Notes: generated by a model from the letters alone, not told the origin. DNA of 43,562 nucleotides from an uncultured Verrucomicrobiota bacterium (GCA_903873415.1 CAIQOK010000188.1:1-43562), one strand, 5' to 3'; numbered from the stretch's first letter, positions 5,644 through 17,397 are shown. Made by a program: numbers and translations.

Positions 5644-7047
5644 TCAGCGCGCCGGCGGCGGGATGAATTTCAAGGACGGGGAGTTGAGTTGCTGCCCCGC
5701 CGCAGCCGCGGCGGTGAGATGGTTGGCATCGGCCAGCGCCGCGGTCCTCCCGCTCATGAATGCCGCGGAGGTCGAGGTGCCGCTGACCAGATAGGCTGAA
5801 CCACCAAAATAAACCACACCAGAACCAGGCGCGATAAGATTGATGAAGGATCCATAATTGGCGTAGCTTGCCAACTGCCCCTGGCTGCTGGCGGTGACAG
5901 AGATGGTTTCCGGATAGGCAGCCGGGTAAAACGGCTGGGGCGACGCATCATTGCCGGCAGCCGCAAACATAGGAATGCCGCTTTGCTTCACCTGCTGGAT
6001 GATGTCATGCAGCACGGCACTCTCACCGGGACTGCCCAGACTCAGATTGATGACATTGGCCCCGCTGCCAACCGCCTTCACAATGCCCAGCGCCACATCA
6101 AAGGTGTTCGCAGTGGGGTTGGAACCGTAGACATCCACACTGACCACCTGCACCCCCGACGCACCACCCGGTTCGGCCGAAAGGGCCCTGAGAATATCCT
6201 GATACATCGACGTGGCATGCGTTGGCACGGTTGGATCCGGACTGGCGCTGCCGGCCACCGAAAGGGTTTTGAGCATGAAAGCATCCAGAGCGTTGCCCTG
6301 CGGCTGCCACGCGGTGTCCACAAGACCGACAATAATTTTCCCCGAACCGTTGGGCGGGCTTAATTTCAACTGCACCGGCGAAGGCAGATTGGGGCTATTG
6401 ACCAAGGGTTGCGGGGCCGGGGGCGGGGCCACGACATAATTGGACTCCACGCCGACCACCTCCGTATTGCCTGACAATTGCTCCCGGGCCGCTGAGGCCG
6501 CATCCGCATCGCCGAACCCAAGCCGGTAGGCGTTGAGGCTGTCAATCTTACCGAGGACCTTGGCACCCAGTTTCCTGGCCAGCTCATCGATGCTGGCACC
6601 GGGTTTGAGACGCACGACCAACTCGTTGGCAATTGCGCAGGCGGGCGCCGCGTTCGTCGCGTTCAAATCCGAAGGTGCTATCACCAGAGTCGCCTTGGCT
6701 TGTGCGGTGCGAAACACCACCAGACAGGGCCGGTGATTGGTCTGCGGCAATAAGGCGAAATTCAGATCACCCAACAAACGATGAAGCGCATCTCCGGGAG
6801 GGCAGTCCTTGAACTTTGTGGAAACCTCATGCACGGTTCCCGGCTCAACCAGAACCGTCCAACCCGTCAACTGAGCCACCCCTTGCAGCAATCGCGGCAA
6901 GGCCACCCCTTGCAAGTCGGCACTGACGCGGTTCTGACTTGAGCTCCATGTCAGGGTGTTGGCCGCCTCCAGCTCGGACAGCCAAAGCATCAACCCTGCG
7001 CCTAAAAACAGCATCCGGCAAATCCAACATCGGCGGTTGCGTTGCAT
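5644..7047 (-). CDS. Secreted S8 (subtilisin-type) serine peptidase with N-terminal STN-like domain
   Basis: With the ATG at 7047 the protein has 467 residues and starts with a plausible signal segment (WICRMLFLGAGLMLWLSELEA). Residues about 30-95 (VALPRLLQGVAQLTGWTVLVEP onward) resemble the short STN domain found in secretins and TonB receptors. Next comes a pro-domain-like region (NELVVRLKPGASIDELARKLG) and then the S8 catalytic domain. All key residues are visible: Asp244 in VGLVDTAW, His277 in PTHATSMY, the oxyanion Asn366 in AAAGNDAS and Ser425 in SGTSTSAAF. The gene lies 47 bp upstream of the heme block on the same strand and could share its transcript, though no functional link is apparent. 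The STN assignment is by pattern only and less certain than the peptidase call. Confidence 0.9.
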   Translation of the reverse strand: MQRNRRCWICRMLFLGAGLMLWLSELEAANTLTWSSSQNRVSADLQGVALPRLLQGVAQLTGWTVLVEPGTVHEVSTKFKDCPPGDALHRLLGDLNFALLPQTNHRPCLVVFRTAQAKATLVIAPSDLNATNAAPACAIANELVVRLKPGASIDELARKLGAKVLGKIDSLNAYRLGFGDADAASAAREQLSGNTEVVGVESNYVVAPPPAPQPLVNSPNLPSPVQLKLSPPNGSGKIIVGLVDTAWQPQGNALDAFMLKTLSVAGSASPDPTVPTHATSMYQDILRALSAEPGGASGVQVVSVDVYGSNPTANTFDVALGIVKAVGSGANVINLSLGSPGESAVLHDIIQQVKQSGIPMFAAAGNDASPQPFYPAAYPETISVTASSQGQLASYANYGSFINLIAPGSGVVYFGGSAYLVSGTSTSAAFMSGRTAALADANHLTAAAAAGQQLNSPSLKFIPPPAR

Positions 7048-7356
7048 GAATTCCACTATAGCAGACACATCCTGACCGCGGGTTAAAAAAAGCCAAACCA
7101 ATCCGTTTAGCCCAGCCAAACAAAAGGGATGAATAAAAAACAACGGCCCACGCAGCGTCCACAATGAATCCGCTGCGGTGGGTTTGCAATCTCATTCCGC
7201 CCATTCGAATTGACTCACGGCTAAATGTTACCGGAGACTGGATTTATTAGAGCTCTCCAGTTCATTGCGGATGACCTCCTTGACATCCCGAGCGCACTCG
7301 CTGTAAACAGCCGGCAACGGAATCGGGCCTGCAGCGATAAGGCCGGCCTCAAGAGC
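7048..7356. other. Gene-free region carrying a solo insertion-sequence-end motif
   Basis: This gap separates the dehydratase gene from the peptidase gene, both on the minus strand. It should hold the peptidase promoter. The only other recognisable content is the motif at 7210-7236, which matches sequences at the insertion-sequence end near 43.4 kb. No transposase remnant is visible beside it. Confidence 0.5.
7210..7236 (+). repeat. Solo copy of IS-end motif TTGACTCA-N7-ATGTTACCGGAG
   Basis: TTGACTCA at 7210-7217 is followed after seven bases by ATGTTACCGGAG. The stretch TAAATGTTACCGGAG (7222-7236) is identical to 43406-43420 at the insertion-sequence end on the right of the window, and the TTGACTCA element precedes both. 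It probably marks a former insertion or a related element lost by deletion. Confidence 0.55.
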
Positions 7357-7794
7357 CTACCCCGCCAGATCGCCGCTAAGAGTCAACTCGGCCTGCAACA
7401 CCAGCCGATCCCCTACCCACGCCGATGCCTGCGACTGAATCAAGTTCCCCAAACGCGCAATCACCCGGGCCTCCAGCCGAATGACTTCCCCGGGCCGGGC
7501 CGAGCCGAGGATTTTGACGCCGCGCAGAGCGGTAAGTTTAAGGCCCAACATCGGCGGCAACGCCGGGTCGCTCTGTGCCACGGTCCCGGCCAGCTGGGCG
7601 GCAGCCTCCACCAGCAGCACACCGGGAAAGAAGGGTTCCCCGGGAAAATGTCCCCGCAAAAAAGGCTCATCCCCCCTCACCAAATACTCCCCCGCCCCGC
7701 TGCGGCCGGGCTCCAGACTGATCAATCGATCGATGAAACGGAACTCCGGCCCGTGAGGCAGGGATTGCAAGGCGGATTTGAGCGGATCGTTCAT
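7357..7794 (-). CDS. FabZ-like 3-hydroxyacyl-ACP dehydratase (hotdog fold)
   Basis: A 145-residue hotdog protein with the FabZ signature RGHFPGEPFFPGVLLVEAAA. His49 and Glu63 occupy the catalytic positions with the 14-residue spacing of FabZ enzymes. It would dehydrate a beta-hydroxyacyl group bound to acyl carrier protein. It is the last gene of a four-gene minus-strand operon; its ATG overlaps the stop of the LolA-like gene as ATGA (7791-7794). Stand-alone dehydratases of this type accompany LolA and MMPL genes in aryl-polyene clusters, so it may be a specialised rather than a housekeeping FabZ. No ketosynthase or carrier protein lies beside it. Confidence 0.9.
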   Translation of the reverse strand: MNDPLKSALQSLPHGPEFRFIDRLISLEPGRSGAGEYLVRGDEPFLRGHFPGEPFFPGVLLVEAAAQLAGTVAQSDPALPPMLGLKLTALRGVKILGSARPGEVIRLEARVIARLGNLIQSQASAWVGDRLVLQAELTLSGDLAG

Positions 7795-8534
7795 GGATGG
7801 TTTTTAAGCGGCTCCACAATCTTGAAATCGTCGGCGATTTTCGGCGTGAAAAGGGTGGCATCCAGAGCGGCATTGATGCCGCCGCGGGCAAAATCATTGC
7901 GCAGGGTCGATCCGTCGGCAAACTCCAACTCGGTGGCCAACAGCATGAAATCATTGGTCGCGAAGGAGATCTTCATACGGGGCATCAGGCGCCGCGCCGC
8001 TGCGGCTTTGGGGACCAACTCCAATTCACACGCCCCGTTGGTCACCGTTTGCGAGGCAAGCCGGAACTGCTCCTCCATGGCGGCCTGACTGCGGGGAAAG
8101 CCCGCCTCAAGCAAAGCCAGGGCATCACGCCACGGCCCGGTTTGCCGGCCGTCGAGCCGATAGCGCTCGGCCCGTTTGAGGCGCGGATAAATCACCACCA
8201 TCTCGTTGGAGTCGCGCACGGCCAGAGTCTGGGCGGGTTGCCCCAGCTCCCAGCGGAAACGGTTGGGCTGGGCGAAATACAAATGCCCGGTGGCGGTCAG
8301 CGGCTGCACCAGCGACTTGAGCGTGCGGGTCTGCACAAAATCCGCCGACCAAGTCTGGACATTGGTCTGCACGGCGAGCCAGGAGACGATCAAGGAATGG
8401 GTCGGTGCCGCCGCTGCGGACGCGAAAAAACTCCACGGGCCAAGCAGAAATCCTGCAAGCAGGGTCAAAAAACAAACAGCGCGGCGCGGACCGCCGGGCA
8501 CGGAACTCTTAAGACTGGATATGTTTGATTTCAT
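7791..8534 (-). CDS. LolA-like outer-membrane lipoprotein carrier protein
   Basis: A periplasmic protein of about 247 residues with an N-terminal signal peptide (hydrophobic CFLTLLAGFLLGPWSFFASA). The mature part shows LolA-family features: WSADFVQTRTLKSLVQPL, TATGHLYFAQPNRFRWEL and DSNEMVVIYPRLKRAERYRL, describing the half-barrel that binds acyl chains. I chose the ATG at 8534 because it overlaps the stop of the exporter gene as ATGA, matching the other junctions of this operon; an ATG at 8549 is also possible. LolA homologues next to MMPL exporters and FabZ-like genes are typical of aryl-polyene-type clusters, where they are thought to carry the lipid product and not lipoproteins. That role is inferred from context. 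Confidence 0.88.
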   Translation of the reverse strand: MKSNISSLKSSVPGGPRRAVCFLTLLAGFLLGPWSFFASAAAAPTHSLIVSWLAVQTNVQTWSADFVQTRTLKSLVQPLTATGHLYFAQPNRFRWELGQPAQTLAVRDSNEMVVIYPRLKRAERYRLDGRQTGPWRDALALLEAGFPRSQAAMEEQFRLASQTVTNGACELELVPKAAAARRLMPRMKISFATNDFMLLATELEFADGSTLRNDFARGGINAALDATLFTPKIADDFKIVEPLKNHP

Positions 8535-11500
8535 GGGTGATGCGTGCATGGATCCCGGGGCTTTGCCGGCTCAAGCCAGACGGGGACAAAATGGTACCAT
8601 TGATCCAAATGCGCCCGGATAACCGGTTCGAAAGCACGTAGTATCTGCTGTGTCAGAGCCTGGCGCACGGCCCGGTCGCGCAGGGCGGCACGATCATAAA
8701 AAATCTCCGGCAGCGTGTGCGCGGCGTAGGCCCCGCCCATCCTTGGCAGGTAAACCGGGAGCAGGGCGCAACCGGAGGCGCGGGCCAACTCGGCGGCCGC
8801 CACGGAGGCGGCAAAGGGCCGGCCGAATAATTCCACGCTCACCGCCGTGGCCGGAGGCGGACGATCCATAAGGAGCGCCACGCAGGCGCCAGCCTCCAGC
8901 CGACGGATGATTTCCACAAATGCAAACGGATCCTCCCCGATGACCAGCGTTTCGATGTTATGTGCCGCCCTCGAAGCCTGCCGTAACCGGGTAAAATCAC
9001 GCCCCGGCTCGGGCAGGGTGATGACGAGCAGTGACACCCCCTGCCGTTTGAGCCAAGGAGCGCCAAACTCCCAGTTGCCCAGATGCAGGGTGAGCAAAAG
9101 CACCCCCCGGCCCCGGGCCTGTGCGGACAAGAAATGTTCCCAACCACTGGCACCGCTCAACAATTGATCAACCGGCAACCCCGCTTCATAACGCCACAGA
9201 TCCACCAACTTGACGGCAAACTCTGAAACCAACAGACGGGCGGTGCGGCGCGCCTCAGCCCGATCCCCCGCCAGCACGGGCAAAATATTGGCAATCACGA
9301 TCTCCCTCCGCCGCCTCGCCACCCGCCAGTAAACCGCAGCCCCGAGCACCGCCAGCCGCAGACACACAGACCGGGGCAATCTGCGCGCCACCCACAGGCC
9401 GGCCTGCCAGAGTTCCGCCCGGTAGAGCGACGACGGCGACAGAGGACCGGAGGTCAGGGGCGGAAAATCGATGGAAGAAGACGGATTGGGGCCCGCGTTT
9501 TTTTGCGGCTGGTGTCCGCTCAACGCCCGCCACCACACTGGCAGGAGGAAGACGGAGATGATCCCGTTGCAGGCGATGCCGACGGCGCAGAGGCGGCCCA
9601 GACTGGCCATGCCGGCGTTGCTGGAGAATGCAATGGCCCCGAAGCCTGCCACAGCCGTGCCGCAGCAGAGCAGCAGCGCCCGGCCAACCGAGCGGTGCGC
9701 CAGCCGCAGATCCCCCCCATAGCGCCGCAAAGCCAGCTGCATGAAAATGCTGTAATCAACCCCGGTTCCCAGAATGAGAGGCAGCGCCATCAGATTCAAC
9801 AAATTCCACGACCACCCCGCCAACCGCATCACCGCCAGCAAAACCAAACCGCTCAGGAGCAATATGGCCAGGCTGAGCAAGACCTCCCCACCCCGCCGGA
9901 AGGCCAGCGCCAGGGAAATCAACACCAGACCGAGCATGGGCAAAACCAGCTTCCATAAGTTGCCGCGCACACTGGCTAGGATCCCCTGCCCGAGCAATTC
10001 CCAGCCCGAAAGCCAGACACGCCTGCCGAGGGCGGGATCTGCCGTGGCGGCTTGCAATTGCTCCTCCAACCCCATCAACGCGCAGACCGGGGCGGAAGCA
10101 TCCGGATAAAGCAGGCTGAGCGCGTAAAAACGAGTGTCATCGCGTGCCGCCAGTTTCTCGAAAATCCAGCGGCTCATGTCGTTCGTCGGCCAAAAGACAT
10201 TGGTGGACGACGCGGCTCGTTGCCAGGTGTCCAGAACCCCTCCGGCCAGGGCCATGGAATTTGAAGTGAACCCGCCGGACTGCGCGGCGGAATTCAGTTC
10301 GGCGCGACGTCCCGCCAAGCGGGCGGCGGCGGCCCGGTTGGCTTGCTGCCATTCCGGCCGCGGCCACAAAGGCGCCGCCAGCGTGAAACCGCTCAGCGTC
10401 CGGTTGGAAACAGCGTTACCCAGCACCAGCTCCACAGCATCCAATCCCAGAGCCACTTCCGACTCCGTCCGCCCCCCCACCAACATCCAGAGCGGTTCGC
10501 GCAGCGGACTAAACTGGCGCTTGATCTCCTCCAGAGCCGCATAAGCCTGGCTGTTCCGGGGGCGCAATGCGTTGGCGGTGGCATCCATTTTCGGAAAACC
10601 GAAGACCAGCGTGGCGATCGACGCGACCACCAGAAAAGCCGTGGCGCCAAAGACAAAGAACCGCGCCAACCCTGCGCGCCCCCCCTGGGATGCGCGGACC
10701 CCGGGGCTCCGGCTGCCGGCGGACAAGGCAGCCGGATGAACTCCGGGCATCTTGTTCCCAGCGCGCCGGCGGTCTGGAAAAAGCGGCGGCAGGAAAGCGA
10801 AAATCATAACGCAGGCGGAAATTCCCACACCCAAACCCACCAACGATCCGAGCTGGGCAAGCCCAGGCAGACCGCCCAAATTGAGAACCAAAAATGCCGC
10901 AATGGTGGTCACCGCCGCCCAGAAAATACTCGGGGCAATCGCACGGCGGATTTCAGGGACGGACAGGTCCGGATGCGCCAGAGCCTCCTGATAATGCACG
11001 ACCGCATAATCCACAGCCAACCCCAGCAGGATTGCGGCAAAGCCCATGCTCACTACGCTGATCGCGCCGAAAATAAGGCCCCCAAGGGCCAGAGTGGCAG
11101 CCAGGATCAAGGCCAGCAACGTCAGCAACCAAAGCATGGGTTTCCAGCGACGGTGTGCCAGCCAGAAAAGGACGGCGATGATCAGCGCGGTGCCGCCGAC
11201 AGAAACCGTAATGTCGCGCTCCATCCCGCTGGAAATCTCAGCCACAAAGGCCGGACGCCCCGTGTAACCAATCTCCACCCCGGTTGGAATGAGGTTTTCC
11301 CGCCGCGCAGACTCAACCAGGTCCTTAACCGCCTTCAACCACCGCAGGCAATCCCGGTAGCTGCCCAAGCCGCCGAACGCCTGGACGAACACCAGCCGAA
11401 AGGTGCCTTCCGCCCCGCTGAAAAGCTCCTGTCCCTGACCGAACGCAGGCGCTGCGCCGGCAACGCCCACGGGCAGTTGCGTCAGGCCGAAGGGGTCGTA

Positions 11501-11965
11501 ACTGAGCCGGGCGATGTCGGCCGGAGAAAGGGTGGTGGAGAGCTGTTCGCGGGCCGCCGACAGGGTGACCGCAAGCCGGTCTGGGGAGAGGCTGCGGATG
11601 AGCCGGGTGAAGGTTTCGGGCGGCTGATTGAGCCAGAGATAGCCGATGAGTTCAGCGGCCTGGCCTGGATGCTCAAGCCAAGGAGGCTGCCAGGTGGCCC
11701 GGGCCACCAGATTTGTCGCCGCACGCAACCGCCCCGCCACTACTCGGGCGGCGGTCTCGGCCGCCTCGGCATCGGGGGCATGGAGGGTGAGGATGAGTTC
11801 GCGGGCGTTGGCGAAATTCTGCTGATGGATTTTCAACCCCTGCACCGCCGGCGCGTCGCCGGGCAACAGGTTGAGAATCTCCACATCAAACCGCAATCGA
11901 ATCACGCCCAACACCGCAAGCGCGATCAAGAGCAGCCAAAGCCAGATACCGAAGCGGCGGGTCAT
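8531..11965 (-). CDS. MMPL/RND-family exporter fused to LpxL-type acyltransferase
   Basis: A single uninterrupted 1144-residue frame. Residues 1-815 form an MMPL-type RND transporter: a first membrane helix (8-23), a periplasmic domain, helices around 255-400 including GLAVDYAV (315-322), a second periplasmic domain (455-660), and helices around 672-810 including GTGVDYSIF (733-741). The two VDY segments are the proton-relay positions of the family. After a linker (816-845), residues 846-1140 form an LpxL/HtrB-type acyltransferase with the active-site segment LTLHLGNWEFG, where His961 and Glu966 fit the HX4(D/E) pattern. Aryl-polyene clusters usually encode these as separate proteins. The gene starts ATGA-coupled to the lipoprotein gene upstream and ends ATGA-coupled to the LolA-like gene. 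It likely moves an acylated product across or out of the inner membrane. Confidence 0.93.
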   Translation of the reverse strand: MTRRFGIWLWLLLIALAVLGVIRLRFDVEILNLLPGDAPAVQGLKIHQQNFANARELILTLHAPDAEAAETAARVVAGRLRAATNLVARATWQPPWLEHPGQAAELIGYLWLNQPPETFTRLIRSLSPDRLAVTLSAAREQLSTTLSPADIARLSYDPFGLTQLPVGVAGAAPAFGQGQELFSGAEGTFRLVFVQAFGGLGSYRDCLRWLKAVKDLVESARRENLIPTGVEIGYTGRPAFVAEISSGMERDITVSVGGTALIIAVLFWLAHRRWKPMLWLLTLLALILAATLALGGLIFGAISVVSMGFAAILLGLAVDYAVVHYQEALAHPDLSVPEIRRAIAPSIFWAAVTTIAAFLVLNLGGLPGLAQLGSLVGLGVGISACVMIFAFLPPLFPDRRRAGNKMPGVHPAALSAGSRSPGVRASQGGRAGLARFFVFGATAFLVVASIATLVFGFPKMDATANALRPRNSQAYAALEEIKRQFSPLREPLWMLVGGRTESEVALGLDAVELVLGNAVSNRTLSGFTLAAPLWPRPEWQQANRAAAARLAGRRAELNSAAQSGGFTSNSMALAGGVLDTWQRAASSTNVFWPTNDMSRWIFEKLAARDDTRFYALSLLYPDASAPVCALMGLEEQLQAATADPALGRRVWLSGWELLGQGILASVRGNLWKLVLPMLGLVLISLALAFRRGGEVLLSLAILLLSGLVLLAVMRLAGWSWNLLNLMALPLILGTGVDYSIFMQLALRRYGGDLRLAHRSVGRALLLCCGTAVAGFGAIAFSSNAGMASLGRLCAVGIACNGIISVFLLPVWWRALSGHQPQKNAGPNPSSSIDFPPLTSGPLSPSSLYRAELWQAGLWVARRLPRSVCLRLAVLGAAVYWRVARRRREIVIANILPVLAGDRAEARRTARLLVSEFAVKLVDLWRYEAGLPVDQLLSGASGWEHFLSAQARGRGVLLLTLHLGNWEFGAPWLKRQGVSLLVITLPEPGRDFTRLRQASRAAHNIETLVIGEDPFAFVEIIRRLEAGACVALLMDRPPPATAVSVELFGRPFAASVAAAELARASGCALLPVYLPRMGGAYAAHTLPEIFYDRAALRDRAVRQALTQQILRAFEPVIRAHLDQWYHFVPVWLEPAKPRDPCTHHP

Positions 11966-12417
11966 GGGTTGAGCCAGCCCTCCAAGCTTTCGCCTGTGGC
12001 GGGGTTGTCCAGCCGCCAGCTGCGGTTTTCAGCCAAACGCCAACGCCAGCGACTGGGCAAGGCTCGCCCCGCTAAAGCCGGGGGGAGTTCAAACCAGAGG
12101 ACCCGCGCCGGCCAAGGGCCGCGGCCCGAATAAAACCGGCCTTGGGCCGGCACCTCCAGTTGCCAGCCATTGGTTGAGGTTTGGGCGATCACCAGCGGAA
12201 AGGGGCTTTTGGTGAATTGCAGCAGGACACGGCCTGAAACATGGGTGGCCACAAGGAGTTCCCCGGCGATTTCCGGGGCATGATGCCCGGCGCGCCACAC
12301 CGCCTGACCCTGAAGAGACTTCCAGCCCGGGGCCGACAGATCGGCCCGGGACATGGGCGGGGCGGTGCGACAGGCCGCCAAATTCAGCGCGAACCAGAGG
12401 CAAAAAAACAACCGCAT
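11962..12417 (-). CDS. Small lipoprotein, DUF3261-like
   Basis: About 151 residues from the ATG at 12417. The N-terminus MRLFFCLWFALNLAAC has the compact shape of a lipoprotein signal ending in the lipobox LAAC. An ATG at 12453 and a TTG at 12465 are also in frame and cannot be excluded, because no ribosome-binding site decides between them. The mature part (FPLVIAQTSTNGWQLEVP, FYSGRGPWPARVLWFELP) resembles in size and style the DUF3261 lipoproteins that accompany MMPL exporters in aryl-polyene clusters; this match is by eye and moderate. It is the first gene of the operon, and its stop overlaps the exporter start as ATGA (11962-11965). It may act as an outer-membrane acceptor for the LolA-like protein. 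Confidence 0.72.
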   Translation of the reverse strand: MRLFFCLWFALNLAACRTAPPMSRADLSAPGWKSLQGQAVWRAGHHAPEIAGELLVATHVSGRVLLQFTKSPFPLVIAQTSTNGWQLEVPAQGRFYSGRGPWPARVLWFELPPALAGRALPSRWRWRLAENRSWRLDNPATGESLEGWLNP

Positions 12418-12593
12418 CCAGGGTCTGAACCCGTTGAAAAAAAAATTGAACATTTCCGCAGTCAACTGTCAAAGCAAGACAGTTCGCGCATTGTAAAAAA
12501 GGCGCGGGCCAAACACAACGCCGGTGAAAACAAGTTTGCTTTCATCCGCTGGAACAGCTACTTAGACGCTTCTCATTTGGGCATGCGTAATTG

Positions 12594-13562
12594 ATGGATA
12601 TGATAAGAGTCAACAACCTGACAAAGTTTTTCGGCGCCAAACACGCCGTGGACGGCATCTCTTTTGCCGTGGAACGCGGCGAGGTGCTCGGCTTCCTGGG
12701 ACCCAACGGGGCCGGCAAATCCACCACCATGCGCATGATCACCGGCTTCATCCCTCCAACATCCGGTGAAATCACCGTGGGCGGCTTTGATATGCTGGAA
12801 AATCCGCTCCCGGCCAAGCGGCTTATCGGCTACCTGCCTGAGAACGCCCCGGCTTACACTGACATGACAGTGCACGGCTTCCTGAGTTTCGCCGCGGAAA
12901 TCCGCGGCTTGCACGGCGGGGCCCGCAAAAAAGCCGTGTCGCGCGCGGTGGAAATGTGCTTCCTGGAAGCGGTGCTGCATCAGAGCGTCGAGACCCTCTC
13001 CAAGGGCTACCGCCATCGCACCTGCTTTGCACAGTCCATCATCCACGACCCGGATGTGCTCATTTTGGACGAGCCGACCGACGGGCTGGATCCCAACCAG
13101 AAACACGAGGTGCGACAGCTCATCCGGCGCATGGGCGCCACCAAGGCCATCATTTTCTCCACCCACATCCTGGAAGAGGTGGATGCGGTTTGTTCCCGGG
13201 CCGTGATCATCGACCGGGGCCGGATTGTGGCCAACGGCACGCCACAACAACTGCGGCAGAAATCCGAATGGTCCGGTGCCGTCACCCTGCGCGTCATCGG
13301 CATCAACGCCGCCACACTACAGCAGCGGTTAATCCAAATACCGGCTGCCAAGAAAATCACCGTGATCAAGGAGGATGCCACCAGCGTCACGGCCCGGGTC
13401 TTCCCCCAACCCGGGTCCAACAGTGTGTTGGCACAGGGCGTGGCCGATGCGGCGCAGGGTTGGAGAATAGAGGAAATGCACACCGAAGAGGGCCGGCTGG
13501 ACGAGGTGTTTCGTAGCATCACCCTGCCGGACACAGCCAAACAGGCGGAGGCAAAGCAATGA
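12594..13562 (+). CDS. ABC transporter ATP-binding protein (GldA-like)
   Basis: A 322-residue ATPase driving the export system encoded with the next three genes. It shows Walker A GPNGAGKST (36-44), the signature LSKGYRHR (135-142), Walker B VLILDEPT (155-162) and the switch His191. The Q-loop position reads GYLPENAP, with Glu in place of the usual Gln; this variant is common in the Gld/ABC-2 ATPase group. A C-terminal extension of about 90 residues follows the nucleotide-binding domain. The start is ATG at 12594; a TTG just before and an ATG at 12600 are alternatives. Its stop overlaps the permease start as ATGA. The gene is divergent from the lipoprotein-exporter operon, so the 176 bp upstream should contain promoters for both directions. 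Confidence 0.93.
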   Translation: MDMIRVNNLTKFFGAKHAVDGISFAVERGEVLGFLGPNGAGKSTTMRMITGFIPPTSGEITVGGFDMLENPLPAKRLIGYLPENAPAYTDMTVHGFLSFAAEIRGLHGGARKKAVSRAVEMCFLEAVLHQSVETLSKGYRHRTCFAQSIIHDPDVLILDEPTDGLDPNQKHEVRQLIRRMGATKAIIFSTHILEEVDAVCSRAVIIDRGRIVANGTPQQLRQKSEWSGAVTLRVIGINAATLQQRLIQIPAAKKITVIKEDATSVTARVFPQPGSNSVLAQGVADAAQGWRIEEMHTEEGRLDEVFRSITLPDTAKQAEAKQ

Positions 13563-14308
13563 ATTCCTGGGCAAACATCAAAACCATCACCAAACGCGAG
13601 CTGGGGGCTTATTTCTCCTCCCCGCTGGCCTACATCTTCATCGTCATTTTCCTGCTCCTTTGCGGGTTTTTCGCCTTTGCGGTGCAGCCCACCTTGCTGA
13701 CCCGGGGACAGGCCTCTCTGGCGGCCAACTTCTTTTTCTGGCATCCTTGGTTTTATCTCTTCCTCGTGCCGGCTGTGGGCATGCGCCTCTGGGCCGAGGA
13801 ACGCCGCGTCGGCACCATCGAACTGCTCCTCACCATGCCCATCACTGCCTGGCAGGCCATCGTCGGCAAGTTTCTGGCAAGCTGGCTCTTTCTGGGCGTC
13901 GCCTTGGCGATGACCTTTCCCATTGTGCTCACCGTGAATTATCTCGGCCACCCGGATAACGGGGTGATCTTTGCCGGTTATCTGGGCAGCTGGCTCATGG
14001 CCGGGTCTTACCTGGCGGTAAGCTGTCTGACCTCCGCCCTCACCCGGAACCAAGTGGTCAGCTTCATCCTCTCGGTGGTCGCCTGTCTGTTCCTGATTCT
14101 GGCCGGGTTCCCCCCGGTCATCAGCCTGCTGGAAAGCTCGGGCCGGCCGTGGTTCGTCGAGGCCGTGGCGTCCTTTAGTGTGATCACTCATTTTGAGGGG
14201 TTGCAAAAGGGCGTGGTGGATTCCCGGGACCTTGTGTTTTACCTGTCGTTGATCGGGTTCTCGCTGTTCAGCACGAGCGTGATTCTGCGCGGCCGCCGCG
14301 CGGGTTGA
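13559..14308 (+). CDS. ABC-2 type permease (GldF-like)
   Basis: A 249-residue membrane protein with six hydrophobic segments, beginning with the cytoplasmic SWANIKTITKRELGAYFSSP stretch characteristic of GldF-type permeases. It includes the conserved WAEERRVGTIELLLTMPIT motif after the second membrane segment, a hallmark of the ABC-2 membrane family. It forms the channel with the ATPase encoded upstream (4-bp overlap at 13559-13562). The substrate is unknown; homologous loci occur in many bacteria that do not glide, so the Gld name does not imply motility. Confidence 0.92.
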   Translation: MNSWANIKTITKRELGAYFSSPLAYIFIVIFLLLCGFFAFAVQPTLLTRGQASLAANFFFWHPWFYLFLVPAVGMRLWAEERRVGTIELLLTMPITAWQAIVGKFLASWLFLGVALAMTFPIVLTVNYLGHPDNGVIFAGYLGSWLMAGSYLAVSCLTSALTRNQVVSFILSVVACLFLILAGFPPVISLLESSGRPWFVEAVASFSVITHFEGLQKGVVDSRDLVFYLSLIGFSLFSTSVILRGRRAG

Positions 14309-14323
14309 AAAAAAGGAGTTGCG

Positions 14324-16222
14324 ATGCAAAAAAAATCTCTGGAAACATTTCTTTTCTCCGTCTTGGGCGTGGCGGCGATGGGCCTGGTGCTCGTGGCGGT
14401 CAACTTCCTTACCGGCACCGTCAAGCTGCGGGCGGATCTCACGGCCGAAAAAGCCCACACCCTGTCCGCCGGCACCAAGGCAATCCTGCGAAAGCTCGAC
14501 ACGCCGGTCAAAATCCGATTCTACTGCACCCAAGTCCAGCAGGCATCCCCGGAAACAATCTACCTGCGCGACTACGCCCGCCGCGTGGAGGATCTCCTGG
14601 CCGAATACAAACAGATCGCCGGAGGCAATCTGACCATTGAAAAACTCGATCCGCAGCCCGATTCCAACGCCGAGGATTCAGCCAAGCTGGACGGCGTGGA
14701 GGGCCAGGCCCTTTCCAGCGGCGAGAAATTTTATCTCGGCCTGGCTGTGAGCGTGCTCGATGAAAAGCAGGCCATCGCCTTTCTCGACCCGAGCCGCGAA
14801 CCCATGCTCGAATACGACTTGTCTCGCGCCGTTTCCCGGGTCATGAAACCCGAGCGCCCCGTCGTCGGAGTCATGACCCCCCTTCCCCTCTTCGGCGCCC
14901 CGGGCAATCCCATGATGATGCAAATGGGCCAGGGCGGTCAGGGTCAGGAACCCTGGTCTCTCATCACCGAACTCAAAAACGACTTCACCGTCCGCACGGT
15001 CCCCATGGACTCCGACAAGATCGATTCCGACATTCGGGTCCTTTTGGTGGTTCATCCCCGGGACATCACCGACAAGGCACAGTTTGCCCTGGACCAGTTT
15101 GTCCTGCGCGGCGGCAAGTTGATCGGCTTTCTCGATCCCTCCCCGCTCTCGGATCGCAGCGGCCAGCAGAATCCCATGATGGGCAGCATGCCTGCCAAGG
15201 GATCCTCCCTGGACAAGCTGCTCAAAGCCTGGGGCCTGAGTTTCGACACCACCAAAGTGGTGGCGGATTTGAACTTCAAGATGCAGGTGGGCGGACGCAA
15301 CGGCCAACCCAGCGAGGCTCCGGCCTTTCTCGGGTTGGTTAACGAAGGGATCAATAAGGAGGACATGGCCAGCGGTCAGATTGACAGCATCTGGCTGCCA
15401 CTGGCAGGGGCGTTCACAGGCACTCCGGCCGCCGGCCTGAAGCAGACAGTGCTTCTGCAAAGCACCCCGGACTCCCAGCTGGTTGAAGGTTTCCTGGCCC
15501 AGATGGGGGGCGAAAGCATTATTCGCGATTTCAAACCCTCGGGCACCAGTTACGCCCTAGCCGTCCGCCTCACCGGAAAATTCAAGACGGCTTTCCCCGA
15601 CGGCAAGCCCGACGAAGACAAGGGCGCAACCAACAAGTTGGACACCGCCTCGCTCAAAGAAAGCCAGCAGGACGGCGTGGTCATCCTGGTGGGAGATGCC
15701 GACATGCTCGCCGATCAATTCTGCCTGCGCCAGATGCAGACGCCCTTCGGCAATCTGGCCCAGCCCATGAACGGCAACCTCACCTTCGTCCAAAACGCCG
15801 TCGAACAACTCAGCGGCGACAGCAACCTCATCTCCGTCCGCAGCCGCGCCGCCCAGAGCCATCCCTTCACCCTGATCCGCAAGATGCAGGCCCAGGCCGA
15901 AGAGGCATATCAGAGCAAGATCAAGGAACTGGAGCAGAGCCTCAGCGAGACGCAGCAGCGCCTCTCCGAACTACAGCAGTCCAAGCAGGGCAACCAACGC
16001 TTCATCCTCTCCCCGGAACAGGCCGCCGAGCTGGAAAAATTCCGCAAGAAAGAGGGCCAAGTCAAAGTCCAGCTCAAGGAGGAGCGCAAGCGCCTGCGTC
16101 GTGACATCGACGCCCTCGAAAACAGGGTCAAGTGGGTCAACATCGCCGCCATGCCGCTGCTGGTCAGCTTGTCCGGCCTGGGCTTGGCGCTCTACAAACG
16201 CAAACGCACTTCGGCAAAATGA
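14324..16222 (+). CDS. GldG-family ABC transport auxiliary protein
   Basis: A 632-residue membrane-anchored protein. A helix near residues 9-30 precedes the segment RADLTAEKAHTLSAGTKAIL, which is the classical start of the GldG/ABC-auxiliary domain. A large extracytoplasmic domain follows, then a coiled coil rich in Glu, Lys and Gln (about residues 520-600, including KIKELEQSLSETQQRL and QVKVQLKEERKRL) and a second helix near the C-terminus (AAMPLLVSLSGLGLALY). The start has a clear ribosome-binding site, AAGGAG at 14313-14318, five bases before the ATG. It lies 15 bp after the permease gene and overlaps the next gene as ATGA. It probably couples the transporter to its extracytoplasmic substrate; the cargo is not evident. 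Confidence 0.92.
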   Translation: MQKKSLETFLFSVLGVAAMGLVLVAVNFLTGTVKLRADLTAEKAHTLSAGTKAILRKLDTPVKIRFYCTQVQQASPETIYLRDYARRVEDLLAEYKQIAGGNLTIEKLDPQPDSNAEDSAKLDGVEGQALSSGEKFYLGLAVSVLDEKQAIAFLDPSREPMLEYDLSRAVSRVMKPERPVVGVMTPLPLFGAPGNPMMMQMGQGGQGQEPWSLITELKNDFTVRTVPMDSDKIDSDIRVLLVVHPRDITDKAQFALDQFVLRGGKLIGFLDPSPLSDRSGQQNPMMGSMPAKGSSLDKLLKAWGLSFDTTKVVADLNFKMQVGGRNGQPSEAPAFLGLVNEGINKEDMASGQIDSIWLPLAGAFTGTPAAGLKQTVLLQSTPDSQLVEGFLAQMGGESIIRDFKPSGTSYALAVRLTGKFKTAFPDGKPDEDKGATNKLDTASLKESQQDGVVILVGDADMLADQFCLRQMQTPFGNLAQPMNGNLTFVQNAVEQLSGDSNLISVRSRAAQSHPFTLIRKMQAQAEEAYQSKIKELEQSLSETQQRLSELQQSKQGNQRFILSPEQAAELEKFRKKEGQVKVQLKEERKRLRRDIDALENRVKWVNIAAMPLLVSLSGLGLALYKRKRTSAK

Positions 16223-17397
16223 ATCGGAAACAACTCGGCATCCTTCTTGGTCTGGTCGTCATGGTGGGCGGCGCCGGCCTCATGGTTTATCAGCAACGCG
16301 AGCACTCCTGGCAGCCTCCCTCAGGTGCCACCGGCGGCAGCCTGTTGGCCAACCTCCCCGTCAACGACATCACCCGCTTGGTCCTCCGCCAAGGCACCAA
16401 CGAGGTCAATCTGATCAAACAATCCGATGCCTGGCGCGTGCGCGAACGCCACGATTACCCGGCCAACTTCACTCAGATCAGCGAATTCCTCCTCAAGGCC
16501 CGCGACCTCAAGGTGGTCCAGACCGAAAAGGTGGGCCCCTCCCAACTCCCAAGACTGCACCTTGCCCCGTCCGGACCGGACACCAATGCGGCGCTGGTGG
16601 TCGAGTTCAAGGGGGCCGGAGACAAGACCCTTTCCACCCTGCTCGTCGGTAAAACCCATCTCCGCAAATCCGCCCGCCCGTCGCCTGACGGAGAGTCCGA
16701 CGGCGGCTTTCCCGACGGCCGCTATGTCATGACAGCCGAACCGGGCACCGTCAGCGTCATCTCGGATCCCCTTGAAAGCCTGCAACCACGGCCGGAGAGC
16801 TGGTTGAACAAAGACTTCATTAAGATTGAGAAAGCCCGTTCACTCACAGTCACCTTTCCCGCAGCCACAAACTCCTGGAAACTCAGCCGCGAAACCGAAT
16901 CAGGCGACTGGAAGTTGGCAGACCTCAAACCCGGCGAGGCTCTCGATTCCGCCAAAACCTCCGCACTCGCCACCCCGCTCAGCTCACCCTCGATCAACGA
17001 CGTGATTTCAGGCGACACACTCACCGGCGGCGTCACCACCGTCAGCGTGGACACCTTCGATGGATTTCACTATGACCTGAAGGTCGGGGCCAAACGAAAC
17101 GACGACCTGCCCCTCACGGTTTCAGTCTCAGCCAACCTCCCCAAGCAACGGGCTGCAGCCAAGGACGAAAAACCGGCCGATAAGGACAGACTCGACAAAG
17201 AGTTCAAGGCGCAATCTCAAAAACTCGAGGAGAAACTCAAACAGGAACAGACTCATCAGGGCTGGACGCATTTAATCTCCAGTTGGTCTCTGGAATCTCT
17301 CGTCAAGGAACGGGCCCAACTGATGGTGGAGAAGAAGGAAGAGCCGAAGACTGAAACACCCGGCTTTCCACAGCCCGGCGAAGCGCCCCATCCCTAG
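16219..17397 (+). CDS. DUF4340 domain-containing protein
   Basis: A 392-residue protein beginning MNRKQLGILLGLVVMVGGAG, a signal anchor, followed by the DUF4340 pattern (NDITRLVLRQGTNEVNLIKQ, DAWRVRERHDYPANFTQI, LLKARDLKVVQTEKV). DUF4340 proteins regularly sit at the end of GldA-F-G type operons, as here. The C-terminal quarter is charged and probably coiled (KDRLDKEFKAQSQKLEEKLK). The start is ATG at 16219, sharing ATGA with the GldG-like stop; the frame extends upstream only inside that gene. Function is unknown, but the context ties it to the ABC system, likely on the outer face of the inner membrane. Confidence 0.9.
   Translation: MNRKQLGILLGLVVMVGGAGLMVYQQREHSWQPPSGATGGSLLANLPVNDITRLVLRQGTNEVNLIKQSDAWRVRERHDYPANFTQISEFLLKARDLKVVQTEKVGPSQLPRLHLAPSGPDTNAALVVEFKGAGDKTLSTLLVGKTHLRKSARPSPDGESDGGFPDGRYVMTAEPGTVSVISDPLESLQPRPESWLNKDFIKIEKARSLTVTFPAATNSWKLSRETESGDWKLADLKPGEALDSAKTSALATPLSSPSINDVISGDTLTGGVTTVSVDTFDGFHYDLKVGAKRNDDLPLTVSVSANLPKQRAAAKDEKPADKDRLDKEFKAQSQKLEEKLKQEQTHQGWTHLISSWSLESLVKERAQLMVEKKEEPKTETPGFPQPGEAPHP

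Follow-up and report, generated by a model that had tools for sequence, protein, structure and literature searches.

An exporter–acyltransferase fusion in an uncultured Verrucomicrobiota bacterium and its probable role in an aryl-polyene-type lipid pathway

The stretch of DNA analysed here, referred to as the window, spans 43,562 nucleotides of the genome of an uncultured Verrucomicrobiota bacterium. Its minus strand (11965..8531) carries one open frame of 1144 residues with an ATG start, in which an MMPL/RND exporter, a linker, and an LpxL-superfamily acyltransferase follow one another, as judged from the frame itself, Pfam, conservation, and AlphaFold modelling. The single frame that the first-pass annotation had reported at 8531-11965 is thus present, though on the minus strand; the plus-strand reading from 8531 is broken by stops. 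The domain search proposed there returned MMPL in two stretches and Lip_A_acyltrans at residues 853-1131, both well over the Pfam cut-off, and an AlphaFold model computed from an alignment of 35 fused proteins reached a mean pLDDT of 86. In this model, the RND fold extends to residue ~816 and the acyltransferase is confidently modelled from residue 850, so the domain limits given earlier (1-815 and 846-1140) are correct to within a few residues. A long plus-strand frame opposite the fusion (10343-12133) is regarded as a GC-rich antisense frame.

The exporter half (residues 1-815; 9521..11965, minus strand) is assigned to the MMPL / HAE3-type RND exporters by its Pfam domain (PF03176, 62.6 bits vs a cut-off of 20.5), by a confident RND fold with 12 long helices, matching 12 predicted transmembrane helices, and by the transmembrane aspartates D319 and D737, which are invariant among 35 fused homologues. 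A Foldseek search ranked the hopanoid transporter HpnN best, followed by MmpL4, MmpL5 and MmpL3, while hhalign aligned Escherichia coli ApeM over nearly its entire length (probability 99.6). HpnN is the closest solved structure to this half, yet it is without an acyltransferase domain, and the fusion falls far under the HpnN equivalog cut-offs (154 vs 752 bits, and 100 vs 1100).

The exporter is followed by a disordered linker (residues ~819-843; 9437..9511, minus strand) with pLDDT <50 and then by the acyltransferase half (residues 850-1131; 8573..9418, minus strand). PF03279 covers residues 853-1131 of this half with 75.5 bits vs a cut-off of 22.3, and the HX4D/E motif is found as an intact HLGNWE at residues 961-966, as the first-pass annotation had claimed, with H961 and E966 invariant among the 35 fused homologues. 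The domain therefore belongs to the LpxL superfamily, but not to LpxL/LpxP proper, as it scores 30 vs 298 bits against TIGR02207. Among the two acyltransferases of the E. coli aryl polyene (ape) cluster, it matches the C-terminal half of ApeJ (hhalign probability 94.5), while ApeD was rejected as its counterpart (probability 0.4). LpxL-type enzymes act on the cytoplasmic side and use acyl-ACP as donor, and RND proteins have cytoplasmic termini; since the RND fold puts the C-terminus of the exporter on the cytoplasmic side, the acyltransferase is predicted to lie there as well. An internal ATG start for the acyltransferase was considered and rejected: the 160 codons of the window from the end of the exporter to HLGNWE hold no ATG, which argues against separate ATG initiation, while GTG and TTG codons do occur there and may conceivably serve as starts.

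Given that HpnN is the closest solved structure and that the acyltransferase lies within the lipid A acyltransferase Pfam family, the fusion could be read as an exporter of HpnN type that carries a lipid A acyltransferase and serves ordinary envelope lipids such as lipid A or hopanoids. This is improbable, as the scores lie far under the equivalog cut-offs quoted above for HpnN and LpxL/LpxP, the same genome encodes a separate 936-residue MMPL frame (contig C34) and a separate, stronger PF03279 protein (contig C22), and the neighbouring genes are of FAS/PKS and Lol-like kinds. The curated cut-offs together with the separate genomic copies argue against the fusion being itself HpnN or a lipid A enzyme.

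The fusion occupies the second position in an operon of four genes with 4-bp ATGA overlaps, in the order LolB-fold lipoprotein, fusion, LolA, and FabZ. The lipoprotein gene (11962..12465, minus strand), whose stop overlaps the fusion start as ATGA, was recognised by its lipobox, with an invariant cysteine C32, and by its fold; translation likely starts at an ATG near 12417 and not at the TTG at 12465. Its model has a pLDDT of 93, and LolB was nearest in both Foldseek and VIA-align, the latter giving Z 9.4-11.4 against E. coli LolB structures. The protein had no Pfam match up to E 10, and hhalign against E. coli ApeN aligned 18 signal-peptide residues and nothing more, while ApeN itself matches PF11659; the likeness to ApeN (DUF3261) is therefore one of fold type, not of sequence. 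The LolA-family periplasmic carrier (7791..8549, minus strand) matches PF03548 and the E. coli ApeL profile (hhalign probability 95.2) and scores under the cut-off of TIGR00547; a second in-frame ATG of lolA, at 8534, would overlap the fusion stop as ATGA. The last gene encodes a FabZ-like 3-hydroxyacyl-ACP dehydratase (7357..7794, minus strand) and shares an ATGA overlap with lolA. No sigma-70-like site emerged from a promoter scan, and predicted terminators did not exceed chance level. Downstream of the operon lies a subtilase with a fervidolysin-like prodomain (5644-7164, minus strand), and on its other side the operon is adjoined by genes for a GldA/GldF-like ABC transporter, then ABC_transp_aux and DUF4340 (12591-17397, plus strand), a neighbourhood that recurs at four other loci (L037, L049, L072, and L075).

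A fused frame of this kind might be the product of an assembly or sequencing error that merged two frames, as the window stems from a draft genome in 189 contigs and certain homologous loci look frameshifted (L047). This is vanishingly improbable: all 28 of the 28 best loci of an order-wide survey (L119-L146) hold both domains within one stop-free frame, as do many other assemblies from independent projects and habitats, and this recurrence independently confirms the frame and rules out an assembly artefact. A scan of species genomes likewise gave 16 loci from independent metagenome projects, the majority with both domains. At one locus (L104:2-1438, genome G010), a frame runs from the start of the exporter straight into the end of the acyltransferase, as would result from an internal deletion or a misassembly.

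Within the order, 134 of 320 genomes contain homologues. By approximate counts read by eye from the survey table, the alignment crosses the junction in one open frame in ~95 genomes from more than 20 family-level groups, while ~20 genomes carry exporter and acyltransferase as separate genes. The domains are accordingly far from always separate in homologues, and the fusion is favoured but not obligatory, because the latter genomes hold two genes. Fusions also occur at 35-41% identity within the same order (L083) and, in more divergent form, in another order of the same class (G296, L090). Within Verrucomicrobiota, the phylum covered, G296 is the one clear fusion found outside the order. A plasmid search found no fusion and nothing beyond weak acyltransferase matches, two in all, in Nocardia and Nonomuraea. 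No MMPL-acyltransferase fusion was found in a literature search, which is weak evidence with most subscription papers outside its coverage.

Judging from a tree of the exporter half, on which the fused state needs ~seven changes, switching between fused and split states happened several times. The fused locus L045 is the nearest kin of L046 and L048, which are split by a stop within the linker, and this kinship indicates that the state changes easily. In this clade, the linker DNA (L040, L046, and L048) contains tandem 7-bp repeats (GTCCAAA); gain or loss of copies would alter the frame and could thereby switch between fused and separate proteins. A conserved 445-residue protein without a Pfam match is encoded near the fusion in one clade (L045:16111-17448, L071, L046, L048, and L076). 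The joining of the two domains may have been neutral, with a stop lost between adjacent, co-translated genes and two enzymes of the same pathway still working independently. The adjacency of the two genes in most split relatives, the short, variable and disordered linkers (8-47 residues among close homologues), and the repeated changes of state, seen even between close kin, would fit such an event. However, the fused state predominates and has been kept across deep divergence, the domain order is constant, and the linker is always in frame, as direct checks of the frames confirmed for the close homologues. While the predominance points to maintenance, it cannot alone prove channelling, and the repeated switching leaves room for a neutral origin, which we consider possible but short of probable. 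A neutral origin would concern the coupling of the two activities only and is compatible with the pathway assignment made below.

In relatives, the operon genes adjoin genes for a ketosynthase (KS), a chain-length factor (CLF), FabG, an acyl carrier protein (ACP), an acyl ligase, a family 2 glycosyltransferase (GT2), and a HydE-like radical SAM enzyme. The locus L070 assembles within ~14 kb a FAD enzyme, then the lipoprotein, the fusion, LolA, and FabZ, and after these an AMP ligase, GT2, the radical SAM enzyme, KS, CLF, FabG, and ACP; L041 and L050 resemble it in gene set, and L039 and L043 hold part of it. At L070 and L041, the fusion thus lies together with the KS, CLF, FabG, ACP, FabZ, and ligase genes of an aryl-polyene-type set. 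The genome of the window also contains this set, in separate subclusters unlinked to the fusion: KS, CLF, FabG, and ACP lie together on contig C140, the AMP ligase and a conserved gene without assigned function on C158, GT2 next to the radical SAM gene on C29, and the flavin (FAD) enzyme on C40. A dedicated RND exporter, a LolA-like carrier, and a LolB-like lipoprotein, the last by fold only, complete the set. For the conserved protein of ~230-300 residues beside the AMP ligase (L041:16255-17151, L037:16772-17635, G000:C158:113926-114621), the copy that was searched matched nothing in Pfam or NCBIfam. The recurrent radical SAM enzyme (L070:14523-15617, L041:18802-19839, G000:C29:7590-8582) is HydE/PylB-like.

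These genes resemble the ape cluster of E. coli, in which ApeM is the exporter, ApeL and ApeN are Lol-like carriers, with ApeL LolA-like and ApeN (DUF3261) LolB-like, and ApeJ acts late, in attachment, with late intermediates remaining when it is deleted (PMC8253772). Both systems have an RND exporter, a late acyltransferase, a LolA carrier, a LolB-like lipoprotein, and a FabZ-type dehydratase, as well as KS/CLF, FabG, ACP, an acyl-ACP ligase, and GT2. In a counterpart search run without ApeD, ApeK, and ApeB (ApeD was compared only with the acyltransferase of the fusion), ApeQ, ApeR/ApeO, and ApeH found counterparts in the verrucomicrobial set, while BLAST matches of exporter, acyltransferase, and ligase to E. 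coli were weak (~23-37% over local stretches, E 0.01 to 1e-4). The verrucomicrobial set differs in adding the HydE-like radical SAM and flavin enzymes and in its lipoprotein without a DUF3261 match. It also differs in architecture: ApeJ of E. coli unites the acyltransferase with GT2, leaving the exporter ApeM as a protein of its own, whereas the verrucomicrobial acyltransferase is joined to the exporter and GT2 stands alone. The N-terminal GT2 domain of ApeJ matches the separate GT2 of the cluster (33%, 2e-25), and together with the ApeJ match of the acyltransferase this gives our main finding, namely that one acyltransferase module is joined to a glycosyltransferase in one lineage and to an exporter in the other.

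Other systems offer partial parallels. Xanthomonadin-type pigment clusters of Lysobacter and Xanthomonas, as described in the available part of the source, contain KS-CLF, ACP, KR, dehydratases, exporters, an outer-membrane carrier protein, a dolichyl-phosphate-mannose-synthase-like gene and, in some, a flavin halogenase, and an exporter-acyltransferase fusion is not described in that part (PMC3691225). In mycobacteria, the acyltransferase Chp2 acts only with MmpL10 present (PMC4183827), and MmpL5 binds the acyl carrier protein AcpM on the cytoplasmic side (PMC12346298). In both cases, an MMPL transporter is coupled functionally or physically to acyl transfer or to an ACP, but the partners are separate polypeptides, and Chp2 is an acyltransferase of another type that works on the periplasmic side. 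A fused protein may plausibly ease the handover.

Taken together, the best explanation is that an aryl-polyene-type (APE-like) lipid pathway uses the fusion as its inner-membrane exporter, into which its late acyltransferase is built. We give this reading, which covers both the pathway and what each half of the protein does, a probability of about 0.72, while direct coupling is weighed separately. In such a pathway, the type II FAS/PKS set (KS, CLF, FabG, FabZ, ACP, and acyl/aryl ligase) would make an unsaturated acyl chain on ACP, and the cytoplasm-facing acyltransferase would move an acyl chain onto a lipid acceptor, the chain being either the polyene or a partner fatty acid and the acceptor probably sugar-bearing because GT2 belongs to the gene set. 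The linked proton-driven RND exporter would then take the finished lipid from the membrane and hand it to the LolA-like carrier for delivery to the outer-membrane LolB-fold lipoprotein. The analysis directly establishes the fusion and its conservation, its partners in the operon, its linkage to pathway genes in relatives, and the occurrence of those genes in the genome of the window; the nature of product and acceptor, the order of acylation and export, and the direct handover between the domains are features that we infer. Since no HydE-like radical SAM enzyme is encoded in the ape cluster of E. coli, the chemistry may depart from that of aryl polyenes.

The first-pass annotation had proposed that acylation of the product takes place at the membrane, during export or ahead of it. 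This remains the most economical reading, and the fused architecture and the predicted cytoplasmic topology fit it, yet physical coupling is still an extrapolation from architecture, and ~20 genomes manage with split genes. What that interpretation missed is the aryl-polyene-type pathway, apparent from LolA, the LolB-fold lipoprotein, and FabZ in the operon and from the remaining genes elsewhere in the genome. Going one step further, it could tentatively be proposed that acylation and export take place in one polypeptide: an ACP-bound polyene or fatty acyl chain would be attached to a lipid carrier at the exporter's cytoplasmic mouth and enter the exporter directly from there. The verrucomicrobial polyene-lipid pathway to which this would belong also employs a HydE-like radical SAM enzyme. 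The use of this enzyme is what suggests that the lipid may be one not yet described.

Aryl-polyene gene clusters rank with the most widely distributed in bacteria (PMC8253772), and how aryl-polyene-type lipids are anchored and exported is poorly understood. A natural fusion of late acyltransferase and exporter constitutes genetic evidence that both steps belong together, and it points to the ApeJ-type, and not the ApeD-type, of the two published acyltransferases as the partner of the exporter. The fusion also offers a single protein in which the coupling of acylation and export can be tested. Finally, it flags a polyene-lipid pathway, so far uncharacterised, that includes an unusual radical SAM enzyme and belongs to a mostly uncultured order.
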